This document shows, in pieces, positions 6,605-61,269 of a stretch of DNA of 64,000 nucleotides. Source of the DNA: Hexactinellida sp. DTS-2022 (lineage: Eukaryota > Porifera > Hexactinellida); NCBI GenBank assembly GCA_028753945.1, contig JAPNXP010000003.1, forward strand, positions 1,054,001-1,118,000, in the 5' to 3' direction. Position numbers and translations under genes: made by a program. The notes under the pieces are model-generated. The model ran no database searches, was not told where the DNA came from, and saw only the letters and a program-made list of their open reading frames with translations. Position 1 is the stretch's first letter. Every line of letters begins with the position of its first letter.

Positions 6605-9006
6605 CAGTGTTTCTTAACCAGGGGTGCTGGCACCCCTGGGGGTGCTGAAATCAATTTTAGGGGGTGCTGGAAAGTTCCCTAACATGTGCAGTACAATATT
6701 TTTTAGAAAAAATATTAATTGCATGGTCGCAGATGCTTCAGCCTAAATTTCGAATATTTGTTATCTTTACTATATATTCATATTATATTGTGATGTCTTG
6801 TGAAGATTTTTAAACATTTACTTGTGTTCTTTCTCGATCACAGATTTGTGATTTACTTGTTAGTCAATTTAATACACATGTCAAAAATTCGGAAGTGGAG
6901 TGATGAATATGTCAGATATGGTTTCGCTGCCTTCCTGAATAATAGTGGAGGTCCAGACCGAGCACAATGCATGACCTGCCATTTCATAATGTGCAACTCG
7001 AATTTGAAGCCTGCGAGACTTCGAGAACACCAGGCGAAGCATCCAGCAGAACAAGAAGAAAGTCTGGAGGCCCTACAAGCCAAGAGGGCTAGATATGACC
7101 AGAAAGGTACGTTACCTCGACTTTTTGAGCCAGTGCAAAAACCACTTGTTCAAGCTTCCTACGAAGTAGCATTCCTTTGCATAAGAGAGAAAGGTTCGCA
7201 TTCTGTCCCAGAAAGTCTGATTAAACCATGCGCCATTCGAATGGTGGAACTGGTCTTGGGAAATGAAGCAGCAAGAAGATTATGGAAGTCCCTCTGTCTA
7301 ATGATGTCATCGCAGGCCGAGTTGCAGATATGAGCTGCAACATCTTGGACCAGGTTGTACAGGAGATTAAGGATAGTCCAATTCGCATCAGCTTGCAGTT
7401 GGATGAATCGACAGATATTTCGAACATAAGTCAATTGATTGTGTATACCAGGTACATCAAAGACTGTGGAATCAAATACGAGTTCCTATTTTGTCAGGGT
7501 TTGCAAACAACCTCCAAGGCAGCAGATGTATTTCGACTCGTAGACGAGTTCTTTCAGAGGCATCAGATCAAGTGGGAGAAAGTAGGGTCGGTCTGCACGG
7601 ATGGGGCGCCAGCTATGATTGGGCATAGCTCTGGCTTCGCTGCATTAGTAAAGGAAAGAGTGCCAGATCTCATAATGAATCACTGTGTTCTTCACCGCCA
7701 TGCCCTGGCAGCAAAGACGTTGTCGCTTCATCTCAAGGATGCACTCTCTATTTGTGTTCAAGTTGTAAATTTCATCAGGGGTCGTCCTTTAAACCACAGA
7801 ATGTTCAAGGTATTATGTGAGGAGATGGGTAGTGAGAATGTTGTCCTTCTATTCCACACGGAAGTACGCTGGTTGTCTAGTGGGAAAATCTTGACCAGAA
7901 TTGCAGAACTCCATGTTGAGATCGCTTTATTCCTCAAAGAACATAAGAATATGTATGCAGAAAACTTTGAAGATGAAATGTTCATCCACTCTGTGTCCTA
8001 TTTAGCAGACATTTTCAGCCATTTGAATGACCTTAACTTGTCTATGCAAGGAGCGGGTGCCAATGGTCTTATTTGTGCTGAGAAGGCGGAAGCCTTCAAG
8101 ATGAAGCTATCACTCCGGAGGCGCCGAGTCCAGGAAGGGAACATTGGAAACTTTCCTACGTTGGACGAGAAGTTGGGAGACAATACATTATTCCCCATCC
8201 TTGCAGAAAGCATTGCTGCTCACCTCTCACATCTCGAGACCACTATGATACATTACTTTCCAAAGGATCGAATAATTGCAGAATGGATTCATCAGCCCTT
8301 TCTGGCAGAAATGTGCGATGACGACAGCCTAAAAGCGGAGCATATCGATCTACGGTGATTCAAGGTTGTCAAATAAAATTTCGAACGTTAACGCTATCTG
8401 ACTTCTGGTGAGGCCAATTGGTAGCATTTCCCGGATTAGCGAAGTCAGCACTGGAGAGAATTATTCCATTTCCTACCACCTATCTGTGTGAGAAAGCATT
8501 TTCAACCATGCTTCATATAAAAACAAAGGCCAGGAACCGTCTCCAAGCTGGCCTGTATCACGACATGAGGGTGGCTTTGGCTGAAACCAAGCCTGATTTT
8601 GATAAACTTGTGGCCCAAAAACAACAACAAAAATCACACTGATGTGAATTATTACCCCCCTCTCTATATTAGTCTTTCTAGCTTGATTTTATTCTTTCTA
8701 TTAATGTTCATTCATTTTTATTATGATAATCACTTGAGTGATTGATGGATTATTTAACCCATGTAGGATGGCATTGGCACTGTAGTACTTGTAGTTCAAT
8801 GCAAGGGGCATTGACGGTAGGTACGGCAATCTAAATCAACCATGGGTCCTCACCATACGAAATTGATGGTAATACATTCTCCGCCTGTAAACGAGGGAAT
8901 CAGACCCCAAATTAGGTATCCTAACTTGGCACTGATCTAAGGGGGTGCTAGACAATCTAGGATGACGCCAGGGGGTGCTGAGGTCAAATAAGGTTAAGAA
9001 ACGCTG
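6605..9006 (+). mobile_element. hAT element (Buster/ZBED5-like), 2402 bp
   Basis: The element begins CAGTGTTTCTTAACC and ends GGTTAAGAAACGCTG. Both sides carry the same 8 bases, GTTTAGAA (6597-6604 and 9007-9014), an exact target duplication. Subterminal GGGGGTGCT repeats occur at both ends (about 6640-6670 and 8940-8980). The interior encodes one transposase on the plus strand, broken by a frameshift and later stops. The intact duplication and few lesions suggest a moderately recent insertion. Confidence 0.92.
6878..8642 (+). pseudogene. hAT transposase, ZBED5/Buster-like, disrupted
   Basis: The likely start is ATG 6878 (MSKIRKWSDEYVRYGF). A BED-type zinc finger follows, with CMTC and an H-x4-H pair (REHQAKH). 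Near 7265-7285 the frame shifts by one base. The second part holds the RNase H-like core: the first catalytic Asp in [10 protein letters not shown], the second in [10 protein letters not shown], the CxxH of HCVLHRHAL and the helical region around [12 protein letters not shown]. After 8358 the frame has stops and shifts, but the C-terminal dimerisation segment is recognisable at 8418-8642 (IPFPTTYLCEKAFST, with the third acidic residue). It would cut and reinsert hAT DNA in the nucleus. Two or more lesions make this copy inactive, though the match to animal ZBED5-type proteins is clear. Confidence 0.9.
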
Positions 9007-26968: not shown

Positions 26969-28618
26969 TATGGTTTTCTCTTTCAATATGCCTGTAGCGC
27001 AAATATTGTAAATGTTTGCGCCAGGTACCGCCTACTAAGAGGGTGTCGCTCTCGTTTAAAAGTTAAAGAGCGCAGAAAGAATATACGGACTGTCAGAGTT
27101 TTATACGGTTCTTTAATTGCCAGTGTTTGCAGAGAACACGATAGGACAAGTGCTATTGAGTTTAAAAACCCTTCGGGTTACCGATATCGTAATTCCTCGA
27201 ATATATCATATGTGTCACGTGCTCCTCGGCGGCATGACTGTAAACTTGGAACGCGCTCAGTTAATAACAAAATAATCTCTGTTGCTGAATTGATTATCTC
27301 GAATCGATTGGATGTCTTAGTCATCTGCGAAACTTGGCTGAAAACTGATAATAATCATTCTATTTCGATGCTCTGTGACCTTCTACCTCTTCACCAGATA
27401 ACCAGCCTCCCGCGTCCTGTTCGTGGAGGCGGTATAGATGTCATCACTAGCGTTGGATTTAAATCTATAAAGAACAAAAGACCAAGTTATGTTTCTTTTG
27501 AATACTTGGATTTGACTCTGACGACTGGTAAAGTGTCCTTTCGTCTTATCTCAATTTACCGCCCACCACCTTCTGTCAAAAATGGGTTATCCTTTTGTCA
27601 ATTTATTATGGATTTCTCGGATTTAATTGAAAGATTATTTACCTCTAATGATAAACTTTTCTTGGTTGGTGACTTTAATATTCCTTTGGATTCCCCATCT
27701 AATCCACACACTATACTCTTCAATGAAATATTGACAACGTTTAACCTACAGCAGCATGTTTATGGTCCGACTCATCAGGGTGGTCACAATCTTGATTTAG
27801 TTATCACTAGGCAGATGGACTGTGGTTATATTGCTTCAAGTTAAACCTTTCCCGATACTCTTTCTGATCACTCCTATATTATTTTTGATCTTTGTTTTCC
27901 ACCTCCTCAGTTGCCTAAGATAAATATATCCACGAGAAATACCAAGTCAATAATAATTGATGATTTCAAACATGACCTTCCACTAAAGTCATTTGGTTCT
28001 TATGGTGATCAGGTTGACTATCTAGTCGATATGTATAACTCGAACTTACGGGCCGTTTTGGATATTCATGCCCCACTAACACACAAACAGGTGACAAGTC
28101 GACCTAATTCTCAGTGGTATACGTATGATCTCAGAGAAAATTAGCGGGAGCTGCGCCAACTCGAAAGAAGCTATATTAAACTACAAACCTATGGGAACCT
28201 AGTGATGTTCAGAGTTAAATGTCGTATTTATAATGAACTTCTAGACTGTGCTAAACGAGCTTATTATAGTGGGAGATTTAAGGACTGTGACAACGATAAG
28301 AAGCTTTTTCAATTAGTTAATAGCTTAACCGCTCCGAAAACACTGATTCTACCGGAAGCTCTGTCGAATATTTCGCTTGCTAAGAAGTTCTCACACTTTT
28401 TTGATTCCAAAATTGATTCACTTAGGAGAGATCTTATTATTTCTCAGACAAACACTAATTTATCTACTGAAATAACCTGCTGTAGTGTGAAGTTCACTGC
28501 TTTTAAGATACAGGATACTTGTTCCCTGATAAGACACCAACTCAAAACGGTCCTGAACCCTTTGCCATCTGGAAAGTTCATTCTTCTGGAGGACAGATGG
28601 TTTGGTACTTTGGAGTAA
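26969..28618 (+). pseudogene. Non-LTR retrotransposon ORF2, endonuclease part (CR1/L2-like)
   Basis: One frame runs from 26969 to 28618 with only two in-frame stops (TAA 27842, TAG 28142). It contains the apurinic-type endonuclease signature in order: RSVNNK (Asn), ICETWL (Glu), SIYRPPP, GDFNIPLD, and LSDHSY just after the first stop. A linker typical of CR1/L2 elements follows, with GPTHQGGHNLDLVI before it. The protein should nick target DNA for reverse transcription in the nucleus. The reverse transcriptase proper is absent: the frame decays after about 28560. It is a 3'-lost, dead copy; assignment to CR1/L2 is by motif style only. Confidence 0.85.
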
Positions 28619-45554: not shown

Positions 45555-45731
45555 ATTGTTATATACCAGCGTCTCAAAATAATATATAATAGCGCATCTA
45601 TGTCTCTGGTTTATCTTTACTATCGTCTCAAAATCATAGTATATTCTTAAATTCATAATAAAATGTAAAAATAAGCCAAATATTACTTTTATAGTAGCGT
45701 CTCAAAATATCACTGTATAATTTCTAATGGC
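45555..45731. repeat. Tandem-repeat host sequence left of the transposon
   Basis: The CGTCTCAAAATATCACTGT and TTCTTAAATTCATA words recur here and again at 48985-49180, on the other side of the inserted element. Units appear about 100-150 bp long. Confidence 0.7.
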
Positions 45732-45739
45732 ACATACAT
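45732..45739 (+). repeat. Left target-site duplication ACATACAT
   Basis: Identical to 48978-48985; it abuts the terminal repeat beginning TAGGCCGG. Confidence 0.93.
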
Positions 45740-46139
45740 TAGGCCGGATCAAGAAAAGTACAATTGGTCGGATCAACTTCTACCTAAGGGAAAAGTTGCC
45801 TTTACTCCTTTCTAGGATTATAAGAAATTTAGATCCGAAAAATATATTGATTTGACCCTTGCGGTTTAATAGTTTTGCTGTGTCACTTTCACATAATTGA
45901 CCTTAAATCCTCCGAATTTTCAAAATCCTTTGACTTAGCCCCTTTAAATGTATTAATTAGTAATAGTAAGTCGCCAATTTGCTGTCGAATAGTATATAAA
46001 GCTAATCTCCATCTATTAGGATACTAAAGTTATGAAGAAATTATTTGTATTTTCGATCATACCCTAATAATATCACCCCCCCCCCCCCCCTCCTTCCCTC
46101 CTTCTTTCCAAAAATTTGAAAATGCATAACACTAGCTTT
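45740..46139 (+). repeat. Left terminal inverted repeat (400 bp)
   Basis: It pairs with 48582-48977 from TAGGCCGG to ACTAGCTTT and contains a run of about 15 C. Confidence 0.93.
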
Positions 46140-46211
46140 TTGATCAGTTGTTGAATAAAGCAAGGTTTAATTATATTATATGCAGTTAATTAAACATGTG
46201 TAATCTTTTTT

Positions 46212-48365
46212 TTACTCAAAAGCAGGCATTTGTTCTCTCGAGGTTAGTGTTGTAAGAATTGATACATGTCTCGCCTCTTCCCCTGTTACTGATGATGAAG
46301 CTTTTGTAACCAGTTGAATAGTTCTTTCAACAGCTTGTGTATGGCATGGATATCCTGGTATTTCTATAGGAGTATACACACTATTAAGTAGTACTTCTTT
46401 TGAGAGGTGTTTTGTCAAAGGCGGTTCTGTGATAAGAGATGTTTCCCAGTCAATCATATCCACGTATGTTTCAGCAGTGAACCTTATTGAAGGAAGCTTA
46501 AATGGGCGAATTTCATTCTGTCCAAATGATGAATTGTTGGTGCGGATATCTAAAATAGTGTTCACTGCCTTTTGTCTAATTTGCACATCATTGTCTGCAA
46601 GCATCGATAACAGAAGGTTTTCTGGATGACAAAAATATGCATTTCTCTGTAGCACATCACAAACTACTTCTTGATCGTAGTCCGGTAACTCTCGCAGTAA
46701 AGATATTGCATAGAATAGGTTTCTAGGTCCATCTGTGCATATAGAATTACTCTTAATTCTAAACCAAACTGGTGCATAGTAATTGACGATAAAATAGACA
46801 ATTCGGGATAATTCAGGTGTAGGATGGATCGTTGAAATGTAAGATCGAAGTAACCTATTGGCTAAAGTTGTCCATCTAGCATGATGTATAGGGCCAGGTT
46901 GCATCGATGCAAGTTCAGATGAGCAGTTACCAGACTGAACTGCATGACATATATTATATAGATATTTCTGATCTGTACTTAAATTGTTGAGAATCTCGCA
47001 ATTGATGTACTGACTTTTACCGCATATAGGATTATAAACCGCGATTGGCTTGCTAGCAAAATCAGAATTAAGTTCTTTTCCAATTACTCCTTTAAAACTA
47101 TTGGGTCCACTGGTTTTCCCATCTATTATCTCAAAGAGATGCCTCAATGGAAGTTCATTACTGTGTAATTGGCAAATAAACCAGTGGAGTGGTTTTGAGA
47201 ACTCTAGTTCAAGGAGTCTAATACATCCATTATGGATTCCAGTGTTAACTCGAGCTCCATCAGCTCCAACAGCCTTTAAATCTGAATTCCGCTCCCTGCA
47301 AAGATCAACCAATTCCCTTGCTATATCTTTTGATTTACCAGAACTAGGTGTTACATGGGCAATATACTGATTTCCTGGTTCAGATAAGACGGTATAATGT
47401 TCTTCATTCACAGTATCCTGGTGCAGATTTCCATCCTCTCTCTCTACCATCACTCGAGTTTGATCTTTACGGCCATCAAAATAAATCGCAGTGATATCCG
47501 TGATATTCTCGTGAGCTTCGTTAGCTAGAACCCTTCTCACTGAAAATCTCGAGCTACGTAGTTTGTTTCTATCAATAATTAGACTATTTTCATCTGGTGT
47601 GATAATACCGTAATCCTGGAGTACTGCGTTGGCTATAGCTGCGCCTGCGCGATCGCTTATCTGATATCTATCACACATTATGGCTAAATTTCGCAATTGA
47701 TTATGATTACGTGTATGCTTGTGATTATTCGATGTATTTGGGTCGTAAGATTCAAACTCTTCAAGGTCACATTCTAAAAATTCCTGCGAAGGTTGATCAG
47801 GTTGTTGTCTCTTCAGTTCGCTTTCTTCTCTTTCATATTGTGCCTCTTTTCTCTTTTGAGCAGCAATATTTTTGGAGGTGGTCGAGCGATCCAAGCTGGA
47901 TAAAAATAATTTTCTAGCGTTTCGCTGATCAAGGAGAAATGGCCACTCGCGGCTTGGTATCTTTTTATCGAAAGAGCAAAAACATTTGCCTACTTCAATC
48001 GGGCATTTACAACTCGAGACGTCGAACAGAACATTGAATTCGGAAATTATAGGTTGGACACGGTCAGGTTGTTGCTTGTTTTGGATACTTTTTCCGTGGT
48101 ATTTAGCTCTCTCAATAATACCAGAATTGATGTATTGTTTTATTTTGATCTCAGATATTGTTGGTATAGAAGTCTTTTCATAGATGCGCACTATTATTTG
48201 TGTAAGTTCTTTCGCAATATCGTCTCTAGTGAATTTCGAATTTTCATTTCTAAGCATTCTGTGATGATTATACAGATCAAGTTTTGTTGGGAGTTGATTT
48301 TCTGGTATAGGTCCAGGGTAACCGAACACAGGATGAAATATTTTACCACGCGTGTATTCTGCCAT
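46212..48365 (-). CDS. Transposase-like protein, 717 aa, intact
   Basis: The start is ATG at 48365 (MAEYTRGK); a TTG codon two positions upstream is in frame but unlikely to be used. No stop or frameshift interrupts 717 codons. Visible features, numbered from this Met: a Cys cluster (C119, C121, C128, C130) that may bind zinc; a charged, probably coiled segment at about 168-190; IYFDGRKD with Asp297; VGADGARVNTG with Asp369; FICQLHSNELPL with a CxxH at 398-401; a long helical region; and CHTQAVERTIQLVTKAS with Glu680. A D-D-CxxH-helical insert-E order is that of RNase H-fold transposases of the hAT-like branch, which cut and join DNA. Position inside matched terminal repeats makes a transposase role the natural reading. 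I see no BED finger. Alternatives are KDZ-type or another superfamily. I am confident in gene and element, less in the superfamily. Confidence 0.88.
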   Translation of the reverse strand: MAEYTRGKIFHPVFGYPGPIPENQLPTKLDLYNHHRMLRNENSKFTRDDIAKELTQIIVRIYEKTSIPTISEIKIKQYINSGIIERAKYHGKSIQNKQQPDRVQPIISEFNVLFDVSSCKCPIEVGKCFCSFDKKIPSREWPFLLDQRNARKLFLSSLDRSTTSKNIAAQKRKEAQYEREESELKRQQPDQPSQEFLECDLEEFESYDPNTSNNHKHTRNHNQLRNLAIMCDRYQISDRAGAAIANAVLQDYGIITPDENSLIIDRNKLRSSRFSVRRVLANEAHENITDITAIYFDGRKDQTRVMVEREDGNLHQDTVNEEHYTVLSEPGNQYIAHVTPSSGKSKDIARELVDLCRERNSDLKAVGADGARVNTGIHNGCIRLLELEFSKPLHWFICQLHSNELPLRHLFEIIDGKTSGPNSFKGVIGKELNSDFASKPIAVYNPICGKSQYINCEILNNLSTDQKYLYNICHAVQSGNCSSELASMQPGPIHHARWTTLANRLLRSYISTIHPTPELSRIVYFIVNYYAPVWFRIKSNSICTDGPRNLFYAISLLRELPDYDQEVVCDVLQRNAYFCHPENLLLSMLADNDVQIRQKAVNTILDIRTNNSSFGQNEIRPFKLPSIRFTAETYVDMIDWETSLITEPPLTKHLSKEVLLNSVYTPIEIPGYPCHTQAVERTIQLVTKASSSVTGEEARHVSILTTLTSREQMPAFE

Positions 48366-48581
48366 ATTCAAAGATCAATAAATTATAGGAATAAAAATAC
48401 TCTAAAGGGTTGATCTGATCAGAGTATTTATGAAGATACAATAATTAACCATAAATTCCATATTAGATAAATGGTAACTAAGTTAAATGCATGGGTTAAG
48501 GAATGTGTATGAAATATCTTTAAACCAATTTAATGATGAATTTAGATTTAGACACAGAAATCAACTATGTTTGAAAATTAT

Positions 48582-48977
48582 AAAGCTAGTGTTATGCATT
48601 TTCAAATTTTGGGAAAGAAGGAGGGAAGGAGGGGGGGGGGGTGATATTATTAGGGTATGATCGAAAATACAAAGAATTTCTTCATAACTTTAGTATCCTA
48701 ATAGATGGAGATTAGCTTTATATACTATTCGACAGCAAATTGGCGACTTACTATTACTAATTAATACATTTAAAGGGGCTAAGTCAAAGGATTTTGAAAA
48801 TTCGGAGGATTTAAGGTCAATTATGTGAAAGTGACACAGCAAAACTATTAAACCGCAAGAGTCAAATCAATATATTTTTCGGATCTAAATTTCTTATAAT
48901 CCTAGAAAGGAGTAAAGGCAACTTTTCCCTTAGGTAGAAGTTGATCCGACCAATTGTACTTTTCTTGATCCGGCCTA
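48582..48977 (-). repeat. Right terminal inverted repeat (396 bp)
   Basis: Complement of 45740-46139. The interval 48366-48581 between gene start and repeat is short and probably holds the promoter together with the repeat. Confidence 0.93.
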
Positions 48978-48985
48978 ACATACAT
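48978..48985 (+). repeat. Right target-site duplication ACATACAT
   Basis: Identical to 45732-45739. Confidence 0.93.
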
Positions 48986-49188
48986 GGTCTGGTAATACAA
49001 TGTCTCAAAATCTCATGCGTCCCAAATTTAAATTATTCTTAAATTCATATTAAAAAGTAAATAAGCGAAAAATTTCCTTTTATAGCGTCTCAAAATATCA
49101 CTGTTTAATTTGTAATATCACATCCATGGTGTATTTAGTGTAACACATAGGCGCTCAGAATCTCACGCGTCTCAAAAATCATGCACCA
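48986..49188. repeat. Tandem-repeat host sequence right of the transposon
   Basis: It continues the CGTCTCAAAATATCACTGT-type units seen at 45555-45731. Confidence 0.7.
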
Positions 49189-55762: not shown

Positions 55763-56647
55763 CTACTTATAATAAAATGGATCGAAGTGATAGAGCTCTT
55801 CGACATTGTGTAGTCGGTGCAGCACTACACCAAGTTTCTGGCCGCTGAACATAGGATTACTGTGTGTTGTAGATGACAATGTCTCATGAGCATAGATAGT
55901 GTCTACTATCCACATATTAGGATTAGTGTGAGTAGCATTGATAACTAATACATCTATCTCCGTTAGAGAACCTAATATAGCTAATACTACATCAGTACCC
56001 CATTCATTTGGTTTGCTTATGAGGTCTAAATGATTGTTCAAATCCTCTTCACAGCTATAATGTAACATTTCCATTACATTATAACCGTATAGAGGGCTGT
56101 TTCGAAATTGACGAATCAATTGAAATTTAAAGTGTTCATATATTGCCTCTGAACCAAAAATAATATGTGCTAAGGATCGGTAAAGACAATTACCATCTCC
56201 AGTTACAGGGCATAATTCAAAATTGTGACCAAACAAATGTGATAGCCTTGCTTCAAGCGATTCGTAGTAATTTTTTAAAGTGCTATCAACAATAACCATT
56301 TCATTATTTATTGGTTGTATTTCCATATCAAGAGTCATTGCTATATGGTTACGCATAAGTAGGGAAAATTGGTTAACAGAACCTGTTAGAGATTCTATCA
56401 ATTCATGTTGTCGAACTTGAGAGAAAGGCAAACTTCCCTCTTTTTCAGTATTACCTGGAACCGAGTCTAGCTCAGAATCAGAAAATGCATTCTCGAATGA
56501 CAACTCCATTGGGGAACAATATCCAGAGTTTTTGTTGGAAGGAGAAATGTTTCCCAGATGATATTGAAATACCTCCTTATAAACTACATTCCGTACCGAA
56601 ACTCCACCAGAGGCAGAGTAATTTCCTCCACATACCATTACTTTCAA
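55763..56647 (-). pseudogene. Helitron C-terminal part: end of helicase and OTU protease domain
   Basis: This segment is the continuation of the helicase after a one-base frameshift near 56720: just upstream in this frame are GQLYVALSRVQNPRGLKV, the last helicase motif. An acidic linker follows, then an OTU domain: VTGDGNCLYRSLAHIIFGSE with Asp151 and Cys154 of the segment, NEWGTDVVLAIL, and a terminal YHFDPF whose His287 would complete the site. The OTU domain itself is open from end to end. OTU proteases remove ubiquitin, and animal Helitrons are known to carry such a domain. Separated from the helicase by the frameshift, it could only be made as a fusion in an unbroken copy. Confidence 0.85.
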
Positions 56648-58170
56648 GCCTCGAGGATTCTGGACTCTGCTGAGAGCAACATATAATTGTCCATGACTAA
56701 ATATAGCCTCCGGAGTAGGTAATATATACCAACTGAATTAAGACTCTGGCCCTGACCTTTGTTAATAGTGATACAAAATGCAGGACGAATTGGAAATTGT
56801 TTTCGCCTGAGAACAAACGGGAAGTCTGTCTCAGAAGGTATCATCACTATGCGAGGTATGAACACTCGTTTGCCACGATGTGTACCAGTTGCAATTTCAG
56901 CATCAATAACATGGCTTGACATTTCAATAATTGTTAAGCGAGAGCCATTACACACCCCTTGAGTGGGATCTAGACTACGCAAAATTATTACTGAGGCGTA
57001 TTTCTTAAGGTAGAGACGATGCGGAGGAAAGCTAGCAAGCGTAATGGAATTTAAAAACTCAGTTGGATACATGGCAGCCTGATTAGAATCTACAGAATCC
57101 GCACTCAATAATACTTTAGCCTCACCGGGTATTTTATTCATCACAAACTCATTGATTTGATCTGTTGTGTCGTTCTTAGGACACCTAATTATGCGGGAAG
57201 TGATATAATCACGATTTTGATAATTTTCCTTAATATCAGAGTAGATAGTTGTGGCCAAGTCTGCGAAAGTTTCACCACGTACTATAAATTTCTCAATTAT
57301 ATGAACCATATTATCTTCGTTTTGAGGTTCAGTACCATCACCTACTCTTAACAAAAAGTCTGAGAATTCGCTCACTTCAACAGAATCCTGAGAAGATAAT
57401 CGCTGAAGACGCATGTTGATCGTTAATTTCATAACTTTAACACAACGCCAAAGTGGTGACCTATTTAAACAGGCAGATACAACTTCTGATCTAGTTCCGT
57501 GCCTAATCACTGGTAGAATTTGACGAAAGTCACCTCCAAATACGATAACCTTTCTTCCAAAAGGTTGGTCACACGAACAAAGGTCTCTCAAACTCCGATC
57601 TATACACTCAGCAGCATGCCTATGTATCATTGGGGCTTCATCCCATACTAATAACTTGGCAGATTGTATTAGTTTAGATAAGGCACTCTGTTTAGAAATG
57701 TTACACACGGAGAACTCATTCACAGGAATTGGAATCTTTAGCCTGGAATGAACAGTCCTCCCGCCTTGCAGCAGGAGAGCTGCTATCCCAGAAGAAGCCA
57801 TCGCTAGTGCGATTTGACCCTGTGATCGGACTTTAGCTAATATCGTGTTGTACAGAAAGGTTTTGCCAGTAGCTCCGGGTCCATCAATAAAAAATTCTCT
57901 CTGGGCAATCATTGGATCATTGATTGCCTCCATTATGCATTCAAAAACGTTAGTTTGATCAGAGTTAAGCCCCCGGATATTTTCCTCAGCAACAGTTAAT
58001 TGTTCAGTGACATTATAATCCATTTCATATCGAATGATGCTAGGTTGGTCATAGGGACTCTTGGCAAGAGACGGAAGTGGCATTCCAGGAAAATCTGAAA
58101 GTGATTTACCCTGTTGTTCTAGTCGATACTGAATATCAATTAATGCCTTGTTAGTCAAGTGCTCGTTCAA
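56644..58170 (-). pseudogene. Helitron PIF1-type helicase domain
   Basis: It is in frame with the preceding segment and separated from it by a TAA at 58207. The superfamily 1 helicase motifs are plain: Walker A GPGATGKT (residues 97-104, with Ala where most family members have Gly), ASSGIAALLL, Walker B LVWDEAPM, FGGDFRQILPV, then FPPHRLYLK, and FCITINKGQGQSLN. The last motif is thrown out of frame by one extra base near 56720. It would unwind DNA ahead of rolling-circle replication. Nearly 500 residues without a stop suggest the element was active not very long ago. Confidence 0.9.
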
Positions 58171-58206
58171 TTCGAGATTGGGAGCTAATACTCTAGCTTT
58201 AAATAA

Positions 58207-60027: not shown

Positions 60028-61269
60028 CTACGCCTTCTGAATACCCGTCTCCGGGATGATGACGGCTACCTCTGGGGCAGCAGGGGCGTTATAGCGTCTG
60101 GGATCTGGGACACCATCAGCTCGGATAATCATCCTAACGTCAGTTCCTCCTTGCGCTCTCATTAGCTCTATTCCGTGTCTGAAGTACTGCACATAAGGAT
60201 TGACCTCGTGCATTAGCGCCTGTAGAGCTTTCAGTTCTGGCAGAGATGCCTCTCCCAGATGCCGCTGCCGGTTTTCTATCTCGCCCTCAGCTGTCCCATC
60301 ATGGATGTATATCTGGGCAAAGGAGGGAGACTCTCCCTCTCTGGGTGTCAGCTGTCCGATGTAATGGTGTACAACTCCCTGGATACGGAAGGTGTATACT
60401 CCACGTCTCGCGCTAGCAAGTTCCTTATCGAGGTTTACTCCCAGCGAAGCAAAGGCCAGAGCTGAGTTGTAGGCTCGAATTTTATCCCTAAACTCTCTCC
60501 CTCGCTTGTCAGAAGTAGTCAGCAGATGCAGTAGCATCTCAGGCGGTGAGACTAAAGGGGGTAGAACCACCTTCCCCTGTTCACAACAGAGGGGGAACTT
60601 GTTGCATTTCTTAGTGCTAGTGGTAAGCTTTTCGCTCTCCCAAAACTTCGCGCCACAAAGTGGACAAATAAATTCCATTGCACCAAAAGAATTTTCGTTG
60701 ATTAGATTATCGTTAAATTCAGATGCAAGAACGGAACGCGCAATATTGAGATAATTATCATTACTATTACCTTTGGTCCTTAAGGACTGGTATTTTCTTT
60801 GATAATCTAGACAGGCAATTCACCTCTCATTACTCTGCTCCTCGAAATGAGACTTTTGATAATCTAGCCGGCGCTTGCGGCGGCTAATTAGTTCTTCACA
60901 GCTCTCGCTTAAATAGTAAGCTTTCTGATATTCTAGCTGCCGTTCAAGACGGGTAGCTTGCCAATCTGAACTCTGATTATCACGGTAAGATAGTTGATAT
61001 TTATGTTGTTGACCGAGACGGGATTCTCGATCGTCTGAACTCTGATTGTCACGATAAGATAATTGATAATTATGTTGTTGACCGAGACGGGAAGCTCGAT
61101 CTTCATCACTCTGTTTTATATATTATGCCAGTTGATACTCTTTTTGCTTCTCAAGCCTGACTTGTTTAGTTTCCAATGTTTCATTATTCCACAAAATTTC
61201 CATTCTCAATGCATCGTTTTTAGTAAAACGTGATTTGCATTGAGGACCGCGTTTTGTAATTCGAGGCAT
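60028..61269 (-). pseudogene. Helitron N-terminal region with RL-Q-Y repeats and zinc finger
   Basis: ATG at 61269 opens MPRITKRGPQCKSRF. Then come five or more repeats of about 22 residues with the pattern RLxxQxxYQ (SRLGQQHNYQLSYRDNQSS, TRLERQLEYQKAY), as in many animal Helitron proteins. Two in-frame stops (TAA near 61123 and TGA near 60823) interrupt otherwise continuous coding. From 60678, EFICPLCGAKFWESEK looks like a zinc-ribbon half, followed by YNSALAFASLGVNLD and VYTFRIQGVVHHYIGQLTP. The frame breaks again at about 60030-59950, where a decayed link to the next piece is visible. Confidence 0.85.

Follow-up and report, generated by a model that had tools for sequence, protein, structure and literature searches.

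A recently mobile DNA transposon family with long inverted repeats in Hexactinellida sp. DTS-2022, most likely of the hATm group

Background

Transposons of the hAT superfamily make 8-bp target site duplications, are 2.5-5 kb in length and end in terminal repeats of 10-25 bp (PMC3942097). A fourth group of the superfamily, hATm, has been proposed and has more than 74 Repbase entries; according to PMC6004678, the 28 members that were checked have 8- or 9-bp duplications, the tips read TAGGGTG/CACCCTA, the terminal inverted repeats (arms) of two members are 417 and 575 bp long, and the hAT dimerization domain PF05699 is present in hATm-6. The name hATm-3 is given to one element in work on the hAT transposons of Hydra (PMC8721813), and a further paper uses a class hAT-hATm (PMC12220107). 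The present analysis concerns a transposon in a 64,000-nucleotide stretch of the Hexactinellida sp. DTS-2022 genome (assembly GCA_028753945.1, contig JAPNXP010000003.1, positions 1,054,001 to 1,118,000), referred to here as the window and numbered from its first base. This element is probably, at roughly 0.8, an autonomous hAT transposon that moves by cut and paste, with hATm as its most likely group.

The C/DxxH motif is common to the hAT, P, MuDR, Kolobok and Dada superfamilies (PMC9587614). Mutator-like elements (MULEs) are described in PMC5225508 as having arms longer than 100 bp and 8-10-bp duplications, with CxxH and a W common to MULE and hAT transposases, and D283 and E419 of Muta1 are given there as 136 residues apart. 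Galileo is reported as a P-superfamily element with long arms. Fungal IS3EU elements have TAYGG tips and 6-bp duplications (PMC12730594).

Results

Copies, duplications and empty sites

The initial annotation had reported inverted repeats of 400 and 396 bp, nearly identical and flanked by an exact 8-bp duplication, and both observations were confirmed: the arms are 98% complementary, the outer tips are TAGGCCGG at the start and CCGGCCTA at the end, and ACATACAT stands on both sides (Table 1). The genome (112.4 Mb in 18 contigs) was searched with the element DNA for the further copies that the initial annotation had proposed to look for. Eleven full-length copies were found, the window copy included, the other ten being 98-99% identical to it, together with one copy split by an insertion, one rearranged copy and older fragments at 66-88%. 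Thirteen copies were examined for duplications, and 12 of these had both ends (L046 lacked one end in the fetched stretch). Exact 8-bp duplications flanked 10 of the 12, and all ten differed in sequence.

Both flanks of the window copy were joined with a single duplication, and the resulting 300 bases were compared with the genome. All 45 matches listed spanned the junction; 13 of them covered 300 of 300 bases and one covered 299, these 14 being 85-95% identical. The matches represent paralogous empty sites, which demonstrate that insertion duplicated 8 bp of the target. With 11 full-length copies, 10 of 12 exact duplications and paralogous empty sites, the observation is far beyond chance, and the family was mobile in the recent past.

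A frame of 721-724 residues was present in four of the 11 full-length copies (L004, L006, L007 and L015). The frame of L002 starts later (688 residues); in five further copies the frame is broken by stops or frameshifts. The 717-codon gene of the window copy is open, as had been described, but it ends seven residues before its four siblings and has lost a C-terminal SKKD stretch that is kept by the siblings and by lineages L040 and L047, which are described below. The description of the element as complete and possibly active holds for the family, with its near-identical copies, varied target sites and four frames of 721-724 residues; the window copy itself is slightly truncated at the C-terminus. 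In six pairwise comparisons of four frames, the ratio of nonsynonymous to synonymous changes lay between 12:5 and 6:1, where random change expects 3.64:1; these counts are too few to show any selection on the transposase.

Ongoing homogenisation of the arms by conversion after insertion was considered as well and is not apparent, since the differences between the two arms of a copy (0-13 of 382 columns) were not clearly below those between copies. In both L008 and L045, variants were common to the two arms within the copy. L016 (C11:5687574) and L015 (C11:5713412) are about 26 kb apart and have common arm variants, perhaps as a result of segmental duplication; within this pair, only L015 has kept a matching 8-bp duplication. 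Two solo ends (C11:6210812-6210978 and C11:8998006-8998174) break off at almost the same point within the element, at bases 167 and 169. No high-copy miniature derivative was found among the 32 matches listed in the search with the element ends.

The predicted transposase

D297, D369, C398/H401 of the CxxH motif (398-401) and E680, all pointed out in the initial annotation, were invariant in alignments of four and of five related transposases. In a tally of 13 members, counted where a letter was present, D297 was found in 10 of 11, D369 in 8 of 9, C398 in 7 of 8, H401 in 9 of 9, W498 in 7 of 9, and E680 in 11 of 11. The spacing of these residues in the window family (D-D 72, D-C 29, D-E 311, and 37 residues from E680 to the end) is close to that of five hAT frames found elsewhere in this genome (D-D 65-69, D-C 19-74, D-E 344-373, and 33-69 to the end). 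Conservation, spacing and the profile similarity reported below support a putative DDE core that also holds CxxH and W. The cysteine cluster noted earlier near residue 120 was also recovered, as C119, C121, C128 and C130 in a CxC...CxC arrangement, with C119 present in 10 of 10 members, C121 in 9 of 9, C128 in 5 of 8 and C130 in 9 of 10; the transposase of L039, a distant relative, does not have it.

The window protein had no Pfam match at E up to 10, and the absence of a BED finger, also claimed initially, is consistent with that search. Among five members of the family there was a single match at chance level (Gig2-like, 0.4, in one member), and pieces of the protein gave matches at chance level only (HEAT at 0.068 and 0.086, Tail_P2_I at 0.17). 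The MULE domain PF10551 and the P-type RNase H-like transposase domain PF21787 were likewise unmatched in the window protein and the five members. The genome itself is rich in both, with at least 150 scored matches each. No relatives outside this genome were found in viral contigs, prokaryote genomes, phages or PHROGs, and sequence searches against solved structures gave matches at E 0.1-0.74 only, with none in one search. Literature searches by a description of the element returned nothing direct; the hATm group was reached through the tip sequence TAGGGTG.

More distant relatives in the same genome

Searching the genome with the protein gave 63 matches, many of them only 26-67% identical, and the element ends were inspected in six copies from five other lineages. 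L040 has a fully open frame of 741 codons, arms of 363 bp, the tip TAGGGTGTCC and the duplication ATGCCCAC. L041 and L042, which belong to one lineage, have arms of 408 and 410 bp and the tip TAGGGTGTAT, L044 has arms of about 230 bp and the tip TAGGGTGGTT, and L047 has arms of 337 bp, the tip TAGGGGGAAT and the duplication GTATTTAT. The protein of L039 (735 open codons) is only 22% identical; this copy has the tip TAGGGTGGAC, the duplication TGGGGTAA and imperfect arms of about 50 bp. All six copies thus carry a TAGG tip, five of them have long arms, and three are flanked by an exact 8-bp duplication. The tips were exactly TAGGGTG in L039, L040, L041/L042 and L044, TAGGGGG in L047, and TAGGCCG in the window family. 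Past the tip, no similarity was evident by eye between the arms of different lineages over the first 60 bases. The distant element at 1483-4275 of L039, with the tip TAGGGTGGACC, illustrates that relatives of the window transposase can have short arms.

Target-site bias was computed on 13 exact duplications, ten from the window family and three from the other lineages. Among the 26 bases at positions 2 and 7, 19 were T2 or A7 (p = 2.6e-5, without correction) and 25 were a pyrimidine at 2 or a purine at 7. Hermes is described in PMC8721813 as having a strong preference for T as the second base and A as the seventh.

Superfamily assignment

A profile of the window family was compared with hAT, P and MULE proteins, with an open frame of the window (7267-8358, + strand) serving as one hAT reference. 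Against a set of six hAT proteins the comparison gave P = 4.2e-4, and the catalytic segment alone gave 7.3e-6, with the second D and CxxH in register. Twelve reversed controls gave 0.088 or more. The order and spacing of D-D-CxxH-W-E, the profile comparison and the Hermes-like target bias point to hAT. The motif order that the initial annotation had called hAT-like is thus backed by spacing and by profile, and its view that the superfamily was unclear can be given up.

That the element is a MULE appears highly improbable. Its arm and duplication lengths fit the description in PMC5225508, and CxxH and W are common to both groups, but no Pfam MULE domain was matched, comparison with two MULE proteins of the same genome gave P = 0.72 and 0.59, the D-E distance is 311 compared with 136 in Muta1, and TAGGG tips and the T2/A7 bias are hAT-like. 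A P-superfamily element of the Galileo type would account for long arms, which Galileo also has, and is if anything more improbable still: the Pfam P-element families were unmatched, and four P-element proteins gave P = 0.52 as a set and 0.14-0.60 singly.

Several results weigh against assignment to hAT. The signal was uneven, with hAT subsets giving 0.002 and 0.012 in two cases and 0.22 and 0.41 in two others; among single hAT proteins, three of six gave 0.012-0.019, over a stretch holding the second D, as seen in residue-by-residue alignments of the L058/L056 set and the window hAT, and the others gave 0.20-0.56. The L039 protein alone gave 0.13 against the whole hAT set. A hAT subset compared with one MULE gave 0.0072, so single values of about 0.007 are not specific. 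Shuffling of columns gave scores of 20.8 or less in 96 of 100 runs, against 42.9 observed, with the other four at 131-135; three of these four were inspected, aligned over just 3-16 columns and look like numerical artefacts. In a first run one of 60 shuffles was a similar outlier above the observed score. Comparison of the C-terminal part was not significant (P = 0.68), its best pairing being PCHTQAVER, the E680 motif, with hAT PASSAPVER; the motif matching PCHTQAVER is where we take the hAT catalytic glutamate to lie. The comparison spanned three superfamilies, hAT, P and MULE. PF05699 was unmatched in five proteins (E up to 10) and in C-terminal pieces of four, and the same model scored at least 150 matches elsewhere in the genome. 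As for the insertions, the flanking 8 bp do not match in L003 and L016, no exact 8-bp duplication was found at the ends of L041, L042 or L044, and G3/C6 of the duplications were enriched too (12 of 26, p = 7e-4).

Some of these results would also be expected if the family were a lineage of superfamily rank among the C/DxxH superfamilies, a deep branch beside hAT and not hATm proper, with its own CxC...CxC module instead of BED, no hAT dimerization domain, near-identical arms of about 400 bp, and hATm-like tips through common descent or convergence. The lack of any Pfam match better than chance in five members (best 0.4, Gig2-like), including PF05699, and a profile link that is modest, uneven and confined to the segment of the second D and CxxH agree with such a placement. 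It is nevertheless unlikely: the TAGG tips, the length and bias of the duplications, the long arms and the D-D-E spacing agree with hAT/hATm, and the link to the hAT set (4.2e-4) about equals that between two hAT sets, L058/L056 and L061/L060 (6.1e-4). An hATm-type element is the most likely reading: the lengths of duplications and arms and a core of the hAT type fit published hATm, as do exactly the tips of four other lineages. This match is one of anatomy and of profile similarity at the level of the superfamily, and not a direct protein match to a named hATm entry.

Feature coordinates and neighbouring frames

Table 1. Positions in the window of the transposon, its parts and the repeat into which it inserted
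Feature	Position	Strand	Basis or remark
Dispersed-repeat unit hosting the insertion, left flank	45642..45739	+	85% identical to 49034-49127
Target site duplication, left copy ACATACAT	45732..45739	.	sequence, empty sites
Transposon, 3,238 bp	45740..48977
Left terminal inverted repeat, 400 bp, starts TAGGCCGG	~45740..46139	+	sequence
Poly-C run	46076..46090		inside left arm
Transposase gene, 717 codons + stop	46212..48365	-	single intronless open frame, ATG start
Right terminal inverted repeat, 396 bp	~48582..48977	-	sequence
Target site duplication, right copy ACATACAT	48978..48985	.	sequence, empty sites
Flanking repeat, second unit (right flank)	49034..49127	+

Other frames of the window also resemble those of mobile elements. 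The frame used as a hAT reference is presumably of the ZBED5 type, those at 55763-58206 and 60028-60819 (- strand) resemble a Helitron helicase that includes an OTU-like part, and that at 26969-27844 (+ strand) looks like a long interspersed nuclear element (LINE) retrotransposon endonuclease; these labels are our assumptions. Six contig ends (L050-L055, on C12, C11 and C1) looked by eye like complex repeats, and no simple TTAGG-type telomere repeat was seen by eye in the first or last 180 bases of each 600-base stretch. A search for COX1 found nothing.

Discussion

A model of movement

Hermes is excised by a hairpin-type mechanism, and the window family may use the same type of excision. Its single gene would encode an RNase H-like DDE transposase with D297, D369, E680, CxxH (398-401) and W498, which would have an RNase H fold and in which E680 would be the catalytic glutamate completing the triad. 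The transposase would recognise the TAGG... tips and the long inverted arms, the latter probably by binding them, and the N-terminal CxC...CxC cluster may bind zinc and take the place of a BED finger in DNA recognition. After excision, the element would be joined to staggered target ends 8 bp apart, which would produce the 8-bp duplication, in which position 2 tends to be a pyrimidine and position 7 a purine.

The hATm group is thinly described in the literature found, and the transposases of the window family match no Pfam model, a gap in Pfam that the family exposes. It is well preserved, and its open frames, its dozen or so copies with hardly any differences, its exact ends and its clean empty sites make it a practical start for studying how long-arm hAT elements move, and the target of binding by the cysteine cluster and the reason for the long arms are open to study in it.

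Comparison with known systems

The TAYGG tips of fungal IS3EU elements resemble the TAGGG of lineages found here, and identity with IS3EU was rejected because IS3EU duplications are 6 bp and those here are 8 bp. Muta1 and other MULEs have in common with the window family long arms, 8-10-bp duplications, CxxH and W, and differ in the distance from the second D to E given above and in showing no profile similarity to it. With hAT elements in general, the window element agrees in its 8-bp duplication and in size, which falls within 2.5-5 kb. Its arms of 400/396 bp exceed the 10-25 bp expected of hAT, which counts against the assignment; the two hATm examples exceed that range too. Hermes and other short-arm hAT elements share with it 8-bp duplications, the T2/A7 bias and the D-D-CxxH-W-E order, and differ from it in that no BED finger or dimerization domain was detected in the window family and its arms are about 400 bp.

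The closest likeness is to hATm, for example hATm-6 of Rhodnius prolixus and Cotesia vestalis. Two differences count on the other side: the window family has the tip TAGGCCG, the hATm tips TAGGGTG/CACCCTA occurring exactly in four other lineages of this genome, and PF05699, present in hATm-6, was detected in neither the window family nor its relatives. The 8-bp duplication falls within the 8 or 9 bp of hATm, the arms are several hundred bp long as in hATm, both in the window element and in L040, L041, L042 and L047 (337-410 bp), and the core appears to be of the hAT type. Duplication length, arm length and predicted core match hATm as published (PMC6004678), the ends do so exactly in four other lineages, and the suggestion of an undescribed system gives way to a new example of a named, little-studied group, which is no new kind of system or class.
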